39,532 nt of DNA from Lachnospiraceae bacterium (GTDB taxonomy: Bacteria > Bacillota > Clostridia > Lachnospirales > Lachnospiraceae). The stretch spans positions 1-39,532 of the forward strand of contig JAQXIR010000011.1 in assembly GCA_029007885.1 (NCBI GenBank), read 5' to 3'. Shown piece by piece: positions 4,995 to 27,686 of this stretch. Position 1 is the first letter of the stretch. The number at the start of each line of letters is the position of its first letter. A program made the translations under genes and the position numbers. A model generated the notes under the pieces. That model was not told where the DNA came from, did no database searches, and saw only the letters and a program-made list of their open reading frames with translations.

Positions 4995-6104
4995 CTAGTT
5001 TGTAATAATCTGTTCTGTTTCTTTGTCAAAGATGTGAATCTTTTCTACATCGAATGCAAATTTAACAGAATCGCCCGGTCTTGCTGTTGTACGGGAATCT
5101 ACTCTTGCTGTAATCGGGAATTCATCCAGATCAAAATACAGATAAACTTCTGCACCAAGTAATTCATATACTTTAATGGTAGATTCAAATACACATTTGG
5201 ATGTTTCGATAAACATTTCGGAATCATATACATCTTCCGGACGAATACCAAATGTAACTGTCTTTCCTGCATAGCCGCCTTCGATTACTTTCTTTGCTTT
5301 TGCCGGCGGAAGCGGAATAGAATGACCTGCGACAAGAAGATTTGCCTCTTCACCCTTAACTTCAACTGTAGCATCTAAGAAGTTCATCTGCGGTGAACCC
5401 ATGAATCCTGCAACGAACAGGTTCTGCGGTTTGTCATATAAGTTCTGAGGAGTATCAACCTGCTGGATAACACCGTCTTTCATAACTACGATTCTTGTTC
5501 CCAGTGTCATAGCTTCTGTCTGGTCATGTGTTACGTAGATGATGGTGGTACCTAATCTCTGGTGTAATTTTGCGATTTCAATACGCATCTGTACACGAAG
5601 TTTTGCATCCAGGTTAGATAACGGTTCGTCCATAAGGAAAACCTTCGGGTTACGAACAATTGCACGACCCATAGCAACACGCTGTCTCTGACCACCGGAA
5701 AGAGCCTTCGGTTTACGGTCAAGCAGTGCGGTAAGATCAAGGATCTTTGCTGCTTCTTTAACCATCTTATCAATTTCATCTTTCGGAACTTTTCTTAATT
5801 TTAATCCGAAAGCCATATTATCATATACTGTCATATGCGGATACAGAGCGTAGTTCTGGAATACCATTGCAATATCTCTGTCTTTCGGCTCTACATCGTT
5901 AACAATTCTGTCACCGATTTTTAATTCACCGGAAGTGATATCTTCGAGTCCGGCAATCATACGAAGTGTTGTAGATTTACCGCATCCTGAAGGTCCTACG
6001 AAAATAATAAACTCTTTATCTGCAATTTCAAGAGAGAAGTCCTTAACAGCTTCAAATCCGTTAGGATATTTTTTGCAAATATTTTTTAATGATAAACTTG
6101 CCAT
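4995..6104 (-). CDS. ugpC: Multi-sugar ABC transporter ATP-binding protein (UgpC/MsmK/MsmX type)
   Basis: 369-residue ATPase that energises carbohydrate import ABC transporters of the CUT1 class. Walker A GPSGCGKST is at 37-45, the signature LSGGQ at 135-139 and Walker B FLMDEP at 156-161. After about residue 235 comes the regulatory TOBE/MalK-like domain. No permease or binding protein gene is adjacent. It is therefore probably a shared ATPase serving several sugar transporters encoded elsewhere, as known for MsmX and MsmK. AGGAGG precedes the ATG. It is a single-gene unit with a terminator behind it. Confidence 0.93.
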   Translation of the reverse strand: MASLSLKNICKKYPNGFEAVKDFSLEIADKEFIIFVGPSGCGKSTTLRMIAGLEDITSGELKIGDRIVNDVEPKDRDIAMVFQNYALYPHMTVYDNMAFGLKLRKVPKDEIDKMVKEAAKILDLTALLDRKPKALSGGQRQRVAMGRAIVRNPKVFLMDEPLSNLDAKLRVQMRIEIAKLHQRLGTTIIYVTHDQTEAMTLGTRIVVMKDGVIQQVDTPQNLYDKPQNLFVAGFMGSPQMNFLDATVEVKGEEANLLVAGHSIPLPPAKAKKVIEGGYAGKTVTFGIRPEDVYDSEMFIETSKCVFESTIKVYELLGAEVYLYFDLDEFPITARVDSRTTARPGDSVKFAFDVEKIHIFDKETEQIITN

Positions 6105-20195: not shown

Positions 20196-20723
20196 TCAGA
20201 CCATCTTCCCCAGAATAATGCTTGCAATCACTCCCGCTAATGTACTGAGCAATGCTCCCGCTAACGTCCATCTTGTTTTTGTGATTTTCACTGTCATATA
20301 GTAAAGGGACATTGTATAAAAAACCGTTTCCGTACAACTGCATAAGATAGAGGCCGTCATTCCCGTCACCGAATCCGTCCCATGCGTTTTGAAAATATCA
20401 ATGGCAAGCCCTGTCGCGGCAGACCCTGAAAACAATTTTACAATAATCAGGCTAAAGATATCCGTGGAAATTCCGATTCTTCCAAATGCCTTTCCTGCAA
20501 CATTCCCCAGAAAATTCAAAAAGCCGGAAGCACGCAAAATTCCAACTCCGACCATTAGTGCAATCAGAGTTGGAATAATTTTGATAACTGTATAAAGCCC
20601 GTCCTTTGCTCCTTTGATAAAATCTTCATAAACGTTGCATTTTGATATAATTCCGTATGCAACAACATAAAAGATCAAAAGCGGTATGATAATATTGGAA
20701 AAATTCGTCAGTGCATTTGCCAA
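20196..20723 (-). CDS. spmB: Spore maturation protein B
   Basis: 175-residue membrane protein of the nucleoside-recognition (Gate) family. With SpmA it is needed for spore core dehydration and heat resistance in Bacillus. IPTLIALMVGVGILRASG and the FSGSAATGLAIDIF and CSCTETVFYTMSLYY segments are characteristic. The only start in frame behind a ribosome site is TTG at 20723 (GAGGAAGTAGGA upstream). It is separated from spmA by nfo, with 54 bases between nfo and spmB. Confidence 0.93.
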   Translation of the reverse strand: MANALTNFSNIIIPLLIFYVVAYGIISKCNVYEDFIKGAKDGLYTVIKIIPTLIALMVGVGILRASGFLNFLGNVAGKAFGRIGISTDIFSLIIVKLFSGSAATGLAIDIFKTHGTDSVTGMTASILCSCTETVFYTMSLYYMTVKITKTRWTLAGALLSTLAGVIASIILGKMV

Positions 20724-21613: not shown

Positions 21614-22231
21614 TCAAGTCCTCTCTTTTGCGTGAAATGAAGTAATATTTTGCATCATTTTACAGAATATGACCGCAACTGCGGTTCCTATTGTCGTTGC
21701 TATCAGCCCCGGTGCAATCACTGCCGTCGGGTTGACGCTTCCGTATTGACTGCGATAAGCAATAATATTGACCGGAATGAGTTGGAGGGAAGAAATGTTA
21801 ATTACCAAAAATGTGCACATTTCATCCGTTGCGGTAGTTACGGTTTCCCGTTTCCCCCGCTTTTTCTCAAATTCCGTTAATTCTTCCATCGCTTTTAACC
21901 CTGCCGGGGTTGCGGCCCAGCCCAGCCCCAATATATTGGAAATCATATTTACCGATATATATTCCCTCGCCTTATGATTTTTCGGAATATTGGGAAACAG
22001 GTATGTGACAAATGGGCTGATTCCTTTTGTCATTTTATCAATCAGACCGCTCTTATCCGCAATTTCCATCAGTCCCGTCCAAAGCGACATCGCACCACAC
22101 ATTGTAATGCACAGAGAAATTGCTTCTTTTGCAGAATTCAGTGCCGCATTGGTAAGGGCCTCCATATTTCCGGTAAATACACCATAAATAATACCGACAA
22201 TAATCATAAAGGCCCAGATATAGTTCATCAT
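21614..22231 (-). CDS. spmA: Spore maturation protein A
   Basis: 205-residue polytopic membrane protein with the nucleoside-recognition/Gate fold. [44 protein letters not shown] and [17 protein letters not shown] are SpmA features. GGAG lies nine bases before the first ATG. A TATAAT box stands 42 bases upstream inside the end of the preceding gene, without a good -35, so both own transcription and read-through are possible. Confidence 0.94.
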
Positions 22232-22272: not shown

Positions 22273-23046
22273 TCAGTCGTTTTCTTTTTCATTCTTAATT
22301 TCATTCTTATCTACTACTTTGATGATTCCCTTTTTCCACATGATACGGGATGAAATCAAAGCAATCGGAAGCATAAACAGAATCAAAAATCCAATCATGC
22401 CGAATAAAGATCCACCGCTTGTTACACGAACCAAAATGGATAAAACGGATACGATAATAAGTACCGGCACAACACCCATAACGCCGTTTTTAACAACCTT
22501 ATTGCCTGCATTTGTGCTGGAGAAAAGTCCCAGTGTCAGAGATCCGAACAATGCCGGGATGATATAATTAGATGCTGTTTTTACAGACGGAAGTTCAAAC
22601 ACAGGACTAATCCATGCACTGAGTAATGCAGCGAGTGCCAGAATAATAACTGTCATAATGGAGCTTACCGCAACCGCTACGGAGGCAACAGCATCGCCTT
22701 CCGGCGTATTTGGCTCTTTCTTTGCAATTTTCATTGCATTTACGGCACACGGAAGTTTTAAGTTCATAATGTTACCTGTAATAAAGGTAAGGTAAGAAGA
22801 TGATCCGAGAATCGGTGTATAACTGAGTGCCTCGGAAATTCCCACCGGAATATAAATCATTAAAATACTGATTGTAGACAGATTGATTACTTCACCGATT
22901 GACGGAATGCAACCATAGTATCCGAGTACGATAAACGGCAGTGCAATCATATATACCAAGGCGATTACTGTGCCGAATCGTCCCCATTTGTGAGACCATT
23001 TCTGAAAAGGGTCCATTGTTTGTACCGGTTTATTTTCTTTACTCAT
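22273..23046 (-). CDS. Polytopic membrane protein, possible transporter subunit
   Basis: 257 residues with about seven membrane segments. I do not recognise a named family with certainty. TPILGSSSYLTFITGNIMNLKLPCA and FSSTNAGNKVV are polar stretches inside membrane regions, as expected for a substrate path. Both ends are charged and cytosol-like (SKENKPVQTMDP and KNEIKNEKEND). AAGGAGGA lies before the ATG. The gene follows the DUF5058-like gene by 21 bases, after an M20 amidohydrolase. The three probably form a unit in which the two membrane proteins import what the enzyme cleaves. Confidence 0.75.
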   Translation of the reverse strand: MSKENKPVQTMDPFQKWSHKWGRFGTVIALVYMIALPFIVLGYYGCIPSIGEVINLSTISILMIYIPVGISEALSYTPILGSSSYLTFITGNIMNLKLPCAVNAMKIAKKEPNTPEGDAVASVAVAVSSIMTVIILALAALLSAWISPVFELPSVKTASNYIIPALFGSLTLGLFSSTNAGNKVVKNGVMGVVPVLIIVSVLSILVRVTSGGSLFGMIGFLILFMLPIALISSRIMWKKGIIKVVDKNEIKNEKEND

Positions 23047-23067
23047 AATGAGATCCTCCTTGTTGTG

Positions 23068-23781
23068 TTATTGAAACAAATTTGTCCAGAAAATTGCTGA
23101 TATCATACCGCCTATCATGGAAAATGCCATGATAAACTCGCTAAGCCAGCGAAGTTTCGGACTCTTAGAAGCAATCACACCAAGCAGGACTGCAATCACA
23201 AGACCTGTTATCATAACTGCTGCCTGAATAGTATCTCCAAACAACAATACCGGAACATAAACGGCGAACAGACAAAGCATAAAGGTTCCGCTCAACACAT
23301 ATTTCCATGTGCTTGCTTCTTTTGTTTTGTTAACACTCATAGAAAGTTTTTTCCCGAAAGGAATCAGAATGGTAAAACCGCTTAACATACCGATGCTCAT
23401 TAAAATCATAACAACTCCGAATTCTCTTCCCGTTGCACTTTCTAACATCTCTGCAGCAGTCGAAAATCCGATTGCAGATGATACGCTGCTGGCAATCAAA
23501 GATTCATAGGAAAGAGAACCGATAACAGACAGTCTCCACCAGGACCATACAACTCCCAATACGGCAATTAATGCGAACAGACCTACTACAATTGACAAAC
23601 TCGGAACAACAGAGAATACAAGGCTTGACTTAATAACCTTTCGAAGTTCCTCTTTTGTAATTCCCATTTCAAGGCAACGGGTATACGCCTTTTTCAGATA
23701 AACCAATGAAAATCCGACAATATACAGCAGACCGATTACAACCAGGGTCAGCAATAACGGACTTGAAATAATTTCTTTCAT
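23068..23781 (-). CDS. DUF5058-like membrane protein
   Basis: 237 residues with about seven membrane segments. It resembles DUF5058 proteins from memory: a first hydrophobic helix, then a charged cytosolic loop TRCLEMGITKEELRKVIKSS, then a large membrane domain with SSAIGFSTAAEML. The open frame runs to 23856 and would overlap the M20 gene. AGAGAGGT before the ATG at 23781 fixes the start and leaves 53 bases after the M20 stop. Function is unproven; a two-subunit transporter with the next gene is likely from size and adjacency. Confidence 0.75.
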   Translation of the reverse strand: MKEIISSPLLLTLVVIGLLYIVGFSLVYLKKAYTRCLEMGITKEELRKVIKSSLVFSVVPSLSIVVGLFALIAVLGVVWSWWRLSVIGSLSYESLIASSVSSAIGFSTAAEMLESATGREFGVVMILMSIGMLSGFTILIPFGKKLSMSVNKTKEASTWKYVLSGTFMLCLFAVYVPVLLFGDTIQAAVMITGLVIAVLLGVIASKSPKLRWLSEFIMAFSMIGGMISAIFWTNLFQ

Positions 23782-23834
23782 AATAACTACCTCTCTTTCG
23801 TTTCTCGCAATTTTATCTATTCTAAAAGCATACG

Positions 23835-25061
23835 TTAATTGTGTTCTTCCAACCAACGCATTGCTGTATATGCATAAACGGTACTTCCGCCCGCTAAAAC
23901 GGATTCATCAAATTTTACTTTCGGATGATGCTGCGGATAGCAGTAACCCTGCTGTGGATTTCCTGCCGCAAGCGCAATCATAATGGAAGGTACTTCCTGA
24001 CTCACATAAGCAAAATCCTCTGAACCTGCAGATTTAGGAGCCTTTTTCTCACCTGATAAAGCATTTAACTGTCCGACGGTAAATGCTTTTTGCCCTAATA
24101 ATTCTTTTGCATATTGAACCGTACATGCAGAAAGATCCGGATCATTTTTAAGAGAAGGACATCCGGAGCCGAAGGAAACTTCCGCTGTGGCGCGAAAAGA
24201 TGCTGCAATCCCCTGAGAAATTTCCGTCATTCGTGTTTTCAGGAAAGAACGAATCTCTTCGTCATAAGTACGAATGGTTCCGCCAAGTTCCACGGTGTCC
24301 GGTATAACGTTTGCCGCAGCACCTCCATGAATTGTCCCGATTGTCAGAACCGCTTCGTCCATCAAAGAAAGTTCTCTTGCATGCAATTCCTGCAAAGCTG
24401 TAATGATATGAGCCGCGACATTAATCGGGTCAACCCCGTTGTTGGGCATGGAGCCGTGACATCCTTTTCCCTGAATTTTAATTGTAAAATAATCAGCTCC
24501 CGGAGCGCTGACACCTCCGTCACTTACGACAACCGTACCGGCCGGCATCGGCATACCTGCCATAACGTGAATCATAAGTGCCGCATCTACATCAGGATTT
24601 TTCAGTACTCCCGCTTCAATCATATCATGAGAGCCCTCGAAGATTTCTTCGGCGGACTGAAACATCAGTTTCACACTTCCCTGTATCTCATCTTCATGTG
24701 CTTTTAACAGTTTTGCTGCCCCAAGCAGCATCGTTGTATGAAGGTCATGTCCGCAGGCATGCATTTTCCCTTCATTTTCCGATTGGAAATCTACATCTGC
24801 TTCTTCTTTCATCGGAAGTGCATCCATATCTGCGCGAAGCAAAAATACTTTGCCCGGTTTTTTCCCACCGGCTACAACAGTAAGTCCTGCTTTCCCACAC
24901 TCCTTAGGCTCGTATCCCATGGCAATTAATTTTTCTTTTACATAAGCAATTGTCTCTTTCGTATCAAACCCGGTTTCCGGATGCCTGTGAAGATTGTGTC
25001 TGATTTTTAACAATTCTTCTTCCTGTTCCTTTGATTCCTGCAATAATTCTTCTGCGGTCAT
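23835..25061 (-). CDS. M20 family amidohydrolase (hippurate/N-acyl-amino-acid type)
   Basis: 408-residue metal-dependent amidohydrolase of the M20D group, which removes acyl groups from amino acids or cleaves related small amides. The metal ligands are visible: C103 and H105 in HACGHD, E138-E139 in QSAEE, H165 in MIHV, and a C-terminal His in QHHPKV. NGVDPINVAAHI belongs to the dimerisation domain. No signal peptide, so it is cytosolic and its substrate must be imported or made inside. AAAGGAGGA lies before the ATG. It heads a unit with two membrane protein genes. Confidence 0.9.
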   Translation of the reverse strand: MTAEELLQESKEQEEELLKIRHNLHRHPETGFDTKETIAYVKEKLIAMGYEPKECGKAGLTVVAGGKKPGKVFLLRADMDALPMKEEADVDFQSENEGKMHACGHDLHTTMLLGAAKLLKAHEDEIQGSVKLMFQSAEEIFEGSHDMIEAGVLKNPDVDAALMIHVMAGMPMPAGTVVVSDGGVSAPGADYFTIKIQGKGCHGSMPNNGVDPINVAAHIITALQELHARELSLMDEAVLTIGTIHGGAAANVIPDTVELGGTIRTYDEEIRSFLKTRMTEISQGIAASFRATAEVSFGSGCPSLKNDPDLSACTVQYAKELLGQKAFTVGQLNALSGEKKAPKSAGSEDFAYVSQEVPSIMIALAAGNPQQGYCYPQHHPKVKFDESVLAGGSTVYAYTAMRWLEEHN

Positions 25062-25083
25062 GGCAGTAATCCTCCTTTTTTAT

Positions 25084-25089
25084 ATTATA
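25084..25089 (-). promoter_or_regulatory. -10 box for the M20 unit
   Basis: A perfect TATAAT on the minus strand, 22 bases before the M20 start codon. The matching -35 position falls inside the edge of the long palindrome and is poor (ATGTTT). Confidence 0.5.
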
Positions 25090-25100
25090 ATCATAGATGC

Positions 25101-25284
25101 TTACGAAACATATTTTAAGCGGACCGGCAGAAAAGTTTTCCGCTCGGGTCCTTAAAAAACGTCAGCACTTGGATTTTTCAAGCATCGCGACGAAAAATCC
25201 TTAGTACTGTTACGTTTTTTACGGGCGAAAGCGTACCCGGACGGAAAATTTTACTGCCGGTCCGCTTTCGACAATGTTTCGTAA
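25101..25284. repeat. Long near-palindromic element, 184 bp
   Basis: The two halves are inverted copies around a short centre near 25180-25190. Matching blocks from outside in: TTACGAAACAT, AAGCGGACCGGCAG, TTTTCCG, CGGGT, TAAAAAACGT and GGATTTTTC, each with its reverse complement on the other side. The right arm has about ten extra bases (GCTTTCGCCC region near 25225), and scattered mismatches suggest age. No ORF is inside. With the gln terminator at 25317 it fills the 316-base gap between the M20 gene and glnQ. Confidence 0.9.
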
Positions 25285-25316
25285 TCGCCTTATATCATAT
25301 TATTCCCAATTTTATA

Positions 25317-25347
25317 TAAAAAAGAGGCTCTTTTATAGAGCCTCTTT
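25317..25347 (-). terminator. Intrinsic terminator after the amino acid ABC genes
   Basis: On the minus strand AAAGAGGCTC/GAGCCTCTTT closes a TATAAAA loop and is followed by TTTTATAT. Confidence 0.9.
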
Positions 25348-26850: not shown

Positions 26851-27642
26851 TTATTTATTACGAACAATGATAACCTGTGTTGCGGTTGTGTAAGGATCGG
26901 AGAAATTAACGCTTTCCAGACGGTCCTCTGTAACAGTCATACCCGCAATACCAACATCTGCTTTTCCGCTTGTTACAGCATTGATGATGGAATCAAATTC
27001 CATATCTTCAATCTTTAATTCCATACCAAGCTTATCACAAATAGCCTGTGCGATATCTGCATCGATTCCGACTACTTTCTGATCCTGATAATATTCATAC
27101 GGTTCAAATGCTGCATTTGTAGCCATAGTTAATGTTCCGTTGGAACGGTCTACACCTTCCGGAGAAACATAAGGAGTTTTTCCTTTCGTATCATCTCCGA
27201 TATAGTTGCTGATAATGCTGTTAATTGTTCCTTCTGCCTGAAGTTCTGCCAGTGCTGCATTAATCTTATCGGTTAATTCCGTGTTGTCTTTTGCAATACA
27301 GATAGCATATTCTTCCAGTGCGAAGTCTTCATCCAGAATCCTAAGGTCAGAGTTCTTTGCAACAAAAGCTTTTGCCGGCTGTTCATCGATAATAACACAG
27401 TCAATCTTGCCCTGTTTTAATGCCTGAACCGCATCTGCGCCTTTGTTGTAACGTTCAATTGTAGAACCTTCTGCTTCATAATCACTTGCATAGATATCAC
27501 CTGTTGTTCCTAACTGAACACCGATTGTTTTTCCCGGTAAGTCATCTACAGAGTTAACGGTATTTGCCGGAACACTGTTTCCGCATGCTGCTAAAGATGC
27601 TGCCATGCAGACAGTAAGTAAAGCTGCTAAAATCTTTTTCAT
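26851..27642 (-). CDS. Amino acid ABC transporter substrate-binding lipoprotein, circularly permuted
   Basis: 263 residues. The signal peptide ends in the lipobox LAAC (17-20), so the protein is lipid-anchored. The rest belongs to the SBP_bac_3 family, but the order is reversed. Residues 30-150 (SVDDLPGKTIGVQLGTTGD through INSIISNYIG) are the part normally found after the first hinge crossing. Residues 166-263 (GTLTMATNAAFEPYEYY through FSDPYTTATQVIIVRNK) are the part that normally begins the mature protein. A linker of about 15 residues joins them. Ligand motifs are kept: FEPYE, GMTVTEDR (R241), QLGTTGD and CVIIDEQPA. GAGGAGG before the ATG at 27642 sets the start. Confidence 0.92.
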   Translation of the reverse strand: MKKILAALLTVCMAASLAACGNSVPANTVNSVDDLPGKTIGVQLGTTGDIYASDYEAEGSTIERYNKGADAVQALKQGKIDCVIIDEQPAKAFVAKNSDLRILDEDFALEEYAICIAKDNTELTDKINAALAELQAEGTINSIISNYIGDDTKGKTPYVSPEGVDRSNGTLTMATNAAFEPYEYYQDQKVVGIDADIAQAICDKLGMELKIEDMEFDSIINAVTSGKADVGIAGMTVTEDRLESVNFSDPYTTATQVIIVRNK

Positions 27643-27686
27643 GGTTATCCTCCTCAAAATATGTATAAATTTTCATTAATAGTACT

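Follow-up and report, generated by a model that had tools for sequence, protein, structure and literature searches.

A DUF5058 membrane protein and its adjacent partner as candidate halves of a heteromeric transporter coupled to amide hydrolases, with glycine conjugates as possible substrates in Lachnospiraceae

A stretch of 39,532 nucleotides from a Lachnospiraceae bacterium (contig JAQXIR010000011.1; analysed whole and hereafter called the window) carries at positions 22273-25061 a cassette of three genes that encode an M20D amidohydrolase, a DUF5058 membrane protein and an unclassified membrane protein, here called the partner. We propose that DUF5058 and the partner would be inverted halves, made separately and with opposite topology, of a single secondary transporter. 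This carrier would bring in a small amide, which the neighbouring hydrolase would then cut in the cytosol. In the window's clade the amide would most likely be a glycine conjugate, i.e., either an N-acylglycine (hippurate, for instance) or a small glycine peptide, from which M20D would free glycine and a carboxylic acid. The parts of this proposal differ in strength. It is highly probable that the two membrane proteins make up a heteromeric transporter and likely that an amide is its substrate; that this amide is a glycine conjugate in the window's clade we consider rather likely, and the reading as a whole, heteromeric uptake of glycine conjugates with cytosolic cleavage, is on balance the one we favour. 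At the sequence level it is carried by a near-obligate pairing of the two genes, opposite charge topologies, repeated coupling to hydrolases and glycine-linked gene contexts in relatives. With a two-part amide importer and a cytosolic hydrolase working together, the pairing, the hydrolase exchanges and the glycine contexts would all find one explanation. More tentatively, the pair may represent an undescribed bacterial and archaeal transporter family in which half-carriers are re-paired with varied amide hydrolases as interchangeable cassettes, serving gut Lachnospiraceae in glycine salvage from N-acylglycines or glycine peptides and able to stand in for the glycine carrier under riboswitch control.

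The three open frames of the cassette lie on the minus strand, separated by gaps of 53 and 21 bases, as described in the original prediction, which had been made from the sequence of the window. The first gene (23835-25061; 408 amino acids, aa) scores 337 bits with TIGR01891 (cut-off 153.75) and is the sole match to this model in its genome; it also matches Peptidase_M20 and M20_dimer in a Pfam scan. Aligned with YxeP it shows the motifs HACGHD, AEE, IHV and HHP at residues 101, 137, 164 and 378, which we take to be the metal-ligand motifs. YxeP, 4ewt, ILL2 and N-alpha-acyl-glutamine aminoacylase are its closest solved relatives, and no hydrophobic N-terminus was seen in its sequence. The protein is a member of the TIGR01891 amidohydrolases by profile match and is predicted to cleave an amide. 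The second gene (23068-23781; minus strand; 237 aa from an ATG, with a longer alternative frame from a TTG) encodes the proposed half A, predicted to have both termini outside, and matches PF16481 with 147.1 bits against a gathering cut-off of 28.2. Both identities agree with those first suggested. The third gene (22273-23046; minus strand; 257 aa) encodes the partner, the proposed half B with both termini predicted inside; it had been called unplaceable, and it has no Pfam match at E<=1 and no NCBIfam match. Sequence searches for solved relatives of the two membrane proteins returned none that was credible. Literature searches on DUF5058, PF16481 and N-acylglycine found no description of the pair, neither DUF5058 nor PF16481 occurs in the papers searched, and the portions of PMC12452182 and PMC9943018 available to us contain nothing on the cassette.

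Judged from gene content, the pairing of DUF5058 with the partner is near-obligate from gut bacteria to haloarchaea and proteobacteria. A phylum sample covered 299 genomes. DUF5058 scored above the cut-off in 23 of them, and in all 23 the partner is the next gene downstream, in the same orientation. Two further genomes hold sub-threshold DUF5058 matches only, without the partner, and one (G218) lacks DUF5058 but has part of the partner at the end of a contig. The order sample (246 genomes), which has G000 and G246 in common with the phylum sample, contains 33 genomes with DUF5058 above the cut-off, and the identical 33 carry the partner. The two genes are adjacent in all of these except G461, where they sit on different contigs, and four further genomes show sub-threshold DUF5058 matches only. 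Among plasmid records the partner was found in 12 (six haloarchaea, three Paracoccus, Vibrio, Paenarthrobacter and Arthrobacter, the last with a short partner match), and the same 12 carry DUF5058, each time adjacent. The 51 loci of close relatives (close loci) include 50 with a partner match, some of them partial, and DUF5058 is adjacent in 46. The survey of the two membrane families that the original prediction had proposed thus found them together rather than usually apart, and the arrangement, as it recurs in many genomes, is beyond chance. Distances of the two subunits correlate (r 0.96), a value that shared descent alone could give.

Several single loci depart from the simple arrangement. 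In L044 a riboswitch and a terminator are followed by the tail of DUF5058 only and then by an intact partner (5521-6080); the truncated DUF5058 is a deletion or an assembly gap. L210, in genome G538, has two DUF5058 genes in tandem ahead of a single partner gene, a hint that the halves may duplicate singly. No natural fusion of the two proteins was seen among the tabulated close loci and the 55 far loci (23 from the phylum sample and 32 from the order sample); a frame in L045 was considered as a fusion and rejected, as it misses parts of both proteins and is taken as an assembly or deletion artefact. Partner homologues also occur in MT838272.1, MT839493.1, MT835800.1 and MT836200.1, four faecal records that are labelled 'Bacteriophage sp.', carry no annotation and are probably bacterial fragments filed as phage.

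The distribution of charges fits two proteins of opposite orientation. We analysed 64 rows per family, with segments assigned manually on the basis of hydropathy and the model. Positive charges of DUF5058 fall in loops 1, 4 and 6 and those of the partner at the N-terminus, in loops 3 and 5 and at the C-terminus, in 64 of 64 rows in each family. This suggests that each protein has six crossings and one re-entrant segment, a reading in which the sides are taken from the same charges as the pattern, so that the agreement is one of consistency rather than an independent test of topology. The 'about seven segments' first given for DUF5058 were therefore near, one of the seven being re-entrant instead of crossing. 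In the fused model described below the order of elements is alike in both proteins and, given the opposite topologies, the pair resembles a single carrier split into two inverted halves. The best conserved residues of both proteins lie in or near the re-entrant segments: in DUF5058, P60 and R83 are conserved in 64 of 64 rows and E93 in 62 of 64, and Y85, G91 and P99 of the partner are conserved in all 64.

A readthrough chain in which DUF5058 and the partner are fused was modelled with a predicted local distance difference test (pLDDT) score of 65.4 and a predicted template modelling (pTM) score of 0.62. The partner modelled alone reached a pLDDT of 53.2 and a pTM of 0.35, whereas its half of the fused model reached about 67 (mean of blocks). 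The higher confidence hints at co-folding, in a comparison that carries no interface score and in which the underlying alignments differ somewhat. The near-obligate pairing, the opposite topology and the better predicted model of the fused partner lend support to the heteromeric transporter that had originally been guessed.

Apart from each other, the two genes have hydrolases as their commonest neighbours by far, and no rival neighbour family is nearly as frequent. Neighbours were counted on the same strand and, for M20, within 1.6 kb; families were assigned to representatives by Pfam or NCBIfam scans and to the remaining rows by profiles built from these representatives. An M20 gene is nearby in 41 of the 55 far loci, in line with the co-occurrence first suspected, another hydrolase only is present in seven and none in seven. 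The nearest hydrolase neighbour is M20A (21 loci), long M20D (8), M20D (7), HyuC-type M20C (3), another M20 (1), PGA_cap (2; tallied among the other hydrolases though its function is unsure), ATC hydrolase (2), Amidohydro_3 (2), Amidohydro_1 (1) and M42 (1). The 23 DUF5058 genomes of the phylum sample hold 215 M20 genes in about 56.5 Mb (a sum of rounded sizes), a density at which about 1% of loci would have an M20 gene by chance, compared with the 17 of 23 observed. Clustering of neighbours by similarity gave the same picture: in the close loci the partner (44), DUF5058 (38) and M20D (33) are followed by a next cluster of 7, and in the far loci the partner (50), DUF5058 (49), M20A (23), long M20D (7) and M20D (7) by a next cluster of 6. 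Among the 50 close loci with a partner, 35 have an M20 gene near and 15 do not, several of these lying at contig ends. Seven of eight genomes without an adjacent M20D have one elsewhere, the best being 44-72% identical to that of the window.

The type of hydrolase tracks the clades of the carrier and has switched many times. On a tree of 68 concatenated DUF5058-partner pairs, 13 of them without a hydrolase (a quick method, with some long branches), the labelled rows require 12 changes of hydrolase type, and all labels together require 21 compared with a mean of 41 when shuffled. HyuC-type M20C genes, of the allantoate or N-carbamoyl amino acid hydrolase family, lie upstream of the pair in L109, L202 and L203, and PucR-type regulators recur near the long-M20D cassettes.

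The link to glycine is an addition to the original prediction. Rfam models were scanned at gathering score over the window, 54 of the 55 far loci (all except L210), 38 of the 51 close loci and two haloarchaeal loci, and the glycine riboswitch (RF00504) was found in 6 of the 38 close loci. In L009, L014 and L046, which share one clade on the pair tree, the riboswitch leads a gcvT-gcvH-gcvPA-gcvPB operon that points away from the cassette, with lipA on the downstream side of the partner; these families were confirmed on the proteins of the three loci. A frame of 306 aa begins 19 bases past the partner in L046; the L009 counterpart of this frame encodes a lipoate-protein ligase. The M20D proteins of L014 and L046 are about 81%, and their partners about 80%, identical to those of the window. 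In L042, L043 and L044 the riboswitch sits in the cassette's own leader, on the same strand, and is the only glycine riboswitch found in each of these genomes; in L042, whose leader was folded, and in L044 it is followed by a hairpin with a T run. The single glycine riboswitch of the window's genome lies at an agcS carrier gene. In the accessible text of PMC11477304, glycine riboswitches are described as ON switches before genes of glycine catabolism and OFF switches before AGCS carriers. Of 26 cassette genomes, 4 have gcvT, and in 3 of these 4 the gene lies beside the cassette. Independently, a similar context is found on haloarchaeal plasmids, which carry DUF5058, the partner and an amidohydrolase (TIGR01891, 254-264 bits in the four scanned). 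Glycine-cleavage genes are near this cassette in five of the six records, those of Haloterrigena turkmenica, Haloterrigena sp. KLK7, Haloarcula, Natronococcus and Halobellus and not that of Halalkalicoccus. A TRIC-annotated gene occurs within the stretches read in five of the six, and the one scanned matches Pfam Gly_transporter.

A number of results weigh against the uptake and cleavage of glycine conjugates by such a two-part system. No glycine riboswitch was detected at gathering score in the window or in the 54 scanned far loci, the Lachnospiraceae contexts are few and clade-bound, and gcvT was not found in the window's genome. A hydrolase neighbour is missing in 7 of 55 far and 15 of 50 close loci, L009 included, where the pair stands within the glycine-cleavage cluster and the hydrolase does not adjoin it. 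One close locus, L036, has a full partner without DUF5058. Neither narrow nor broad profiles gave a signal of homology between DUF5058 and the partner, and Foldseek with the fused model gave no significant match (best E 0.04).

In a rival reading the pair carries the product rather than the amide. Glycine itself, or a different amino acid, would be moved into the cell, or out of it when in excess, with the hydrolase merely feeding the same pool. The glycine riboswitch leaders, at the cassette in relatives and at agcS in the window's genome, would suit such a carrier, and free-glycine carriage keeps some probability because of the arrangement in L009. On the other hand, the pair is coupled to hydrolases of many types, whose products must differ, and the haloarchaeal loci already have a gene of the Gly_transporter family nearby; we consider carriage of the product unlikely, though worth weighing. 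It is less likely still that the pair imports amides and the window's clade uses another class of N-acyl amino acids, the glycine contexts belonging to other branches. The window without a glycine riboswitch, its genome without gcvT and the small share of cassette genomes with this gene speak for another class, whereas L014 and L046 combine glycine-cleavage synteny with M20D and partner proteins closely resembling those of the window. That the pair is no carrier, serving instead as a platform in the membrane, a sensor or a channel by which the hydrolase is held or controlled, is very improbable: a hydrophobic segment stands at the N-terminus in 19 of the 22 M20A rows next to the pair, by which these enzymes may stay membrane-bound, but the M20D rows have no such anchor save for a weak segment in L200, and six crossings with a re-entrant segment in each protein, where charged, glycine and proline residues are conserved, are carrier-like.

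The import of an amide by two half-proteins would have a parallel in DUF969/DUF979 (PF06149/PF06166), which the accessible portions of PMC11467057 and PMC12795558 describe as a two-gene 5-oxoproline carrier adjoining a ring-opening enzyme, with one structural repeat proposed for each protein. As there, two adjacent genes encode half-size membrane proteins and an enzyme gene adjoins them, a likeness of organisation and not of membership: neither protein matches PF06149 or PF06166 at E<=1, and the hydrolase partners differ. By analogy, DUF969/DUF979 may be regarded as the closest precedent, with no sequence link at the level tested. Clostridioides difficile, in the accessible text of PMC11477304, has a YfcC carrier and an M20D amidohydrolase in an apparent operon under a lysine riboswitch. 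The combination of a carrier and M20D under an amino-acid riboswitch resembles the cassette, where the riboswitch is found in relatives; unlike the pair, YfcC is a one-protein carrier of another family, and its riboswitch responds to lysine rather than glycine. The AGCS glycine/alanine carriers (TIGR00835) are a single-protein family that needs no hydrolase; in the window's genome agcS is the gene led by the riboswitch, and in L042-L044 the riboswitch leads the cassette instead. Among the rows listed in a structural second look with the fused model (pLDDT 65), the best and most of the others were SLC26, SLC23 and SLC4 carriers of the UraA fold (7+7 inverted repeat), covering both halves with Z up to 8.3, which is within the tool's unspecific range for helical proteins. 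We do not claim the UraA fold for the pair, as the structural Z is low; moreover, the charges agree with six rather than seven crossings in each half, and the best Foldseek match belongs to another family. The YjiG/YjiH proteins of Escherichia coli are presumably two small Gate-domain membrane proteins beside the isoaspartyl dipeptidase IadA. They were considered as a described precedent and set aside, the literature search having given papers that name the genes, and the pair has no match to the Gate domain in a Pfam scan.

If the proposal is true, DUF5058 and the unnamed partner family would gain a function, and one more carrier still made as two half-proteins, a seldom-seen evolutionary intermediate, would be on record. 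The proposal would also offer a rule by which a substrate could be guessed, namely by reading the hydrolase that adjoins the pair, and would point to gut bacteria making direct use of glycine conjugates, which form a large class of metabolites from host and microbes.

Upstream of the cassette, a terminator-like hairpin on the minus strand (25321-25347; 11 pairs and then a T run, by pattern match only) lies between ATP-binding cassette (ABC) transporter genes and the M20D gene. A long imperfect palindrome at 25082-25303, also between these genes, belongs to a repeat family with 16 matches in its own genome, two of them being the palindrome itself and its reverse; it is perhaps an element like a miniature inverted-repeat transposable element. 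Directly downstream, two genes for Gate-domain membrane proteins (20196-20723 and 21614-22231), one scoring above and one just below the Pfam cut-off, flank a deoxyribonuclease IV gene; they were considered as part of the system and rejected, since no matches were found near the cassette in the 51 relatives. The substrate-binding protein encoded at 26851-27657 has two SBP_bac_3 stretches in swapped order, its N-terminal part matching the end of the profile, and may therefore be circularly permuted or consist of two half copies.
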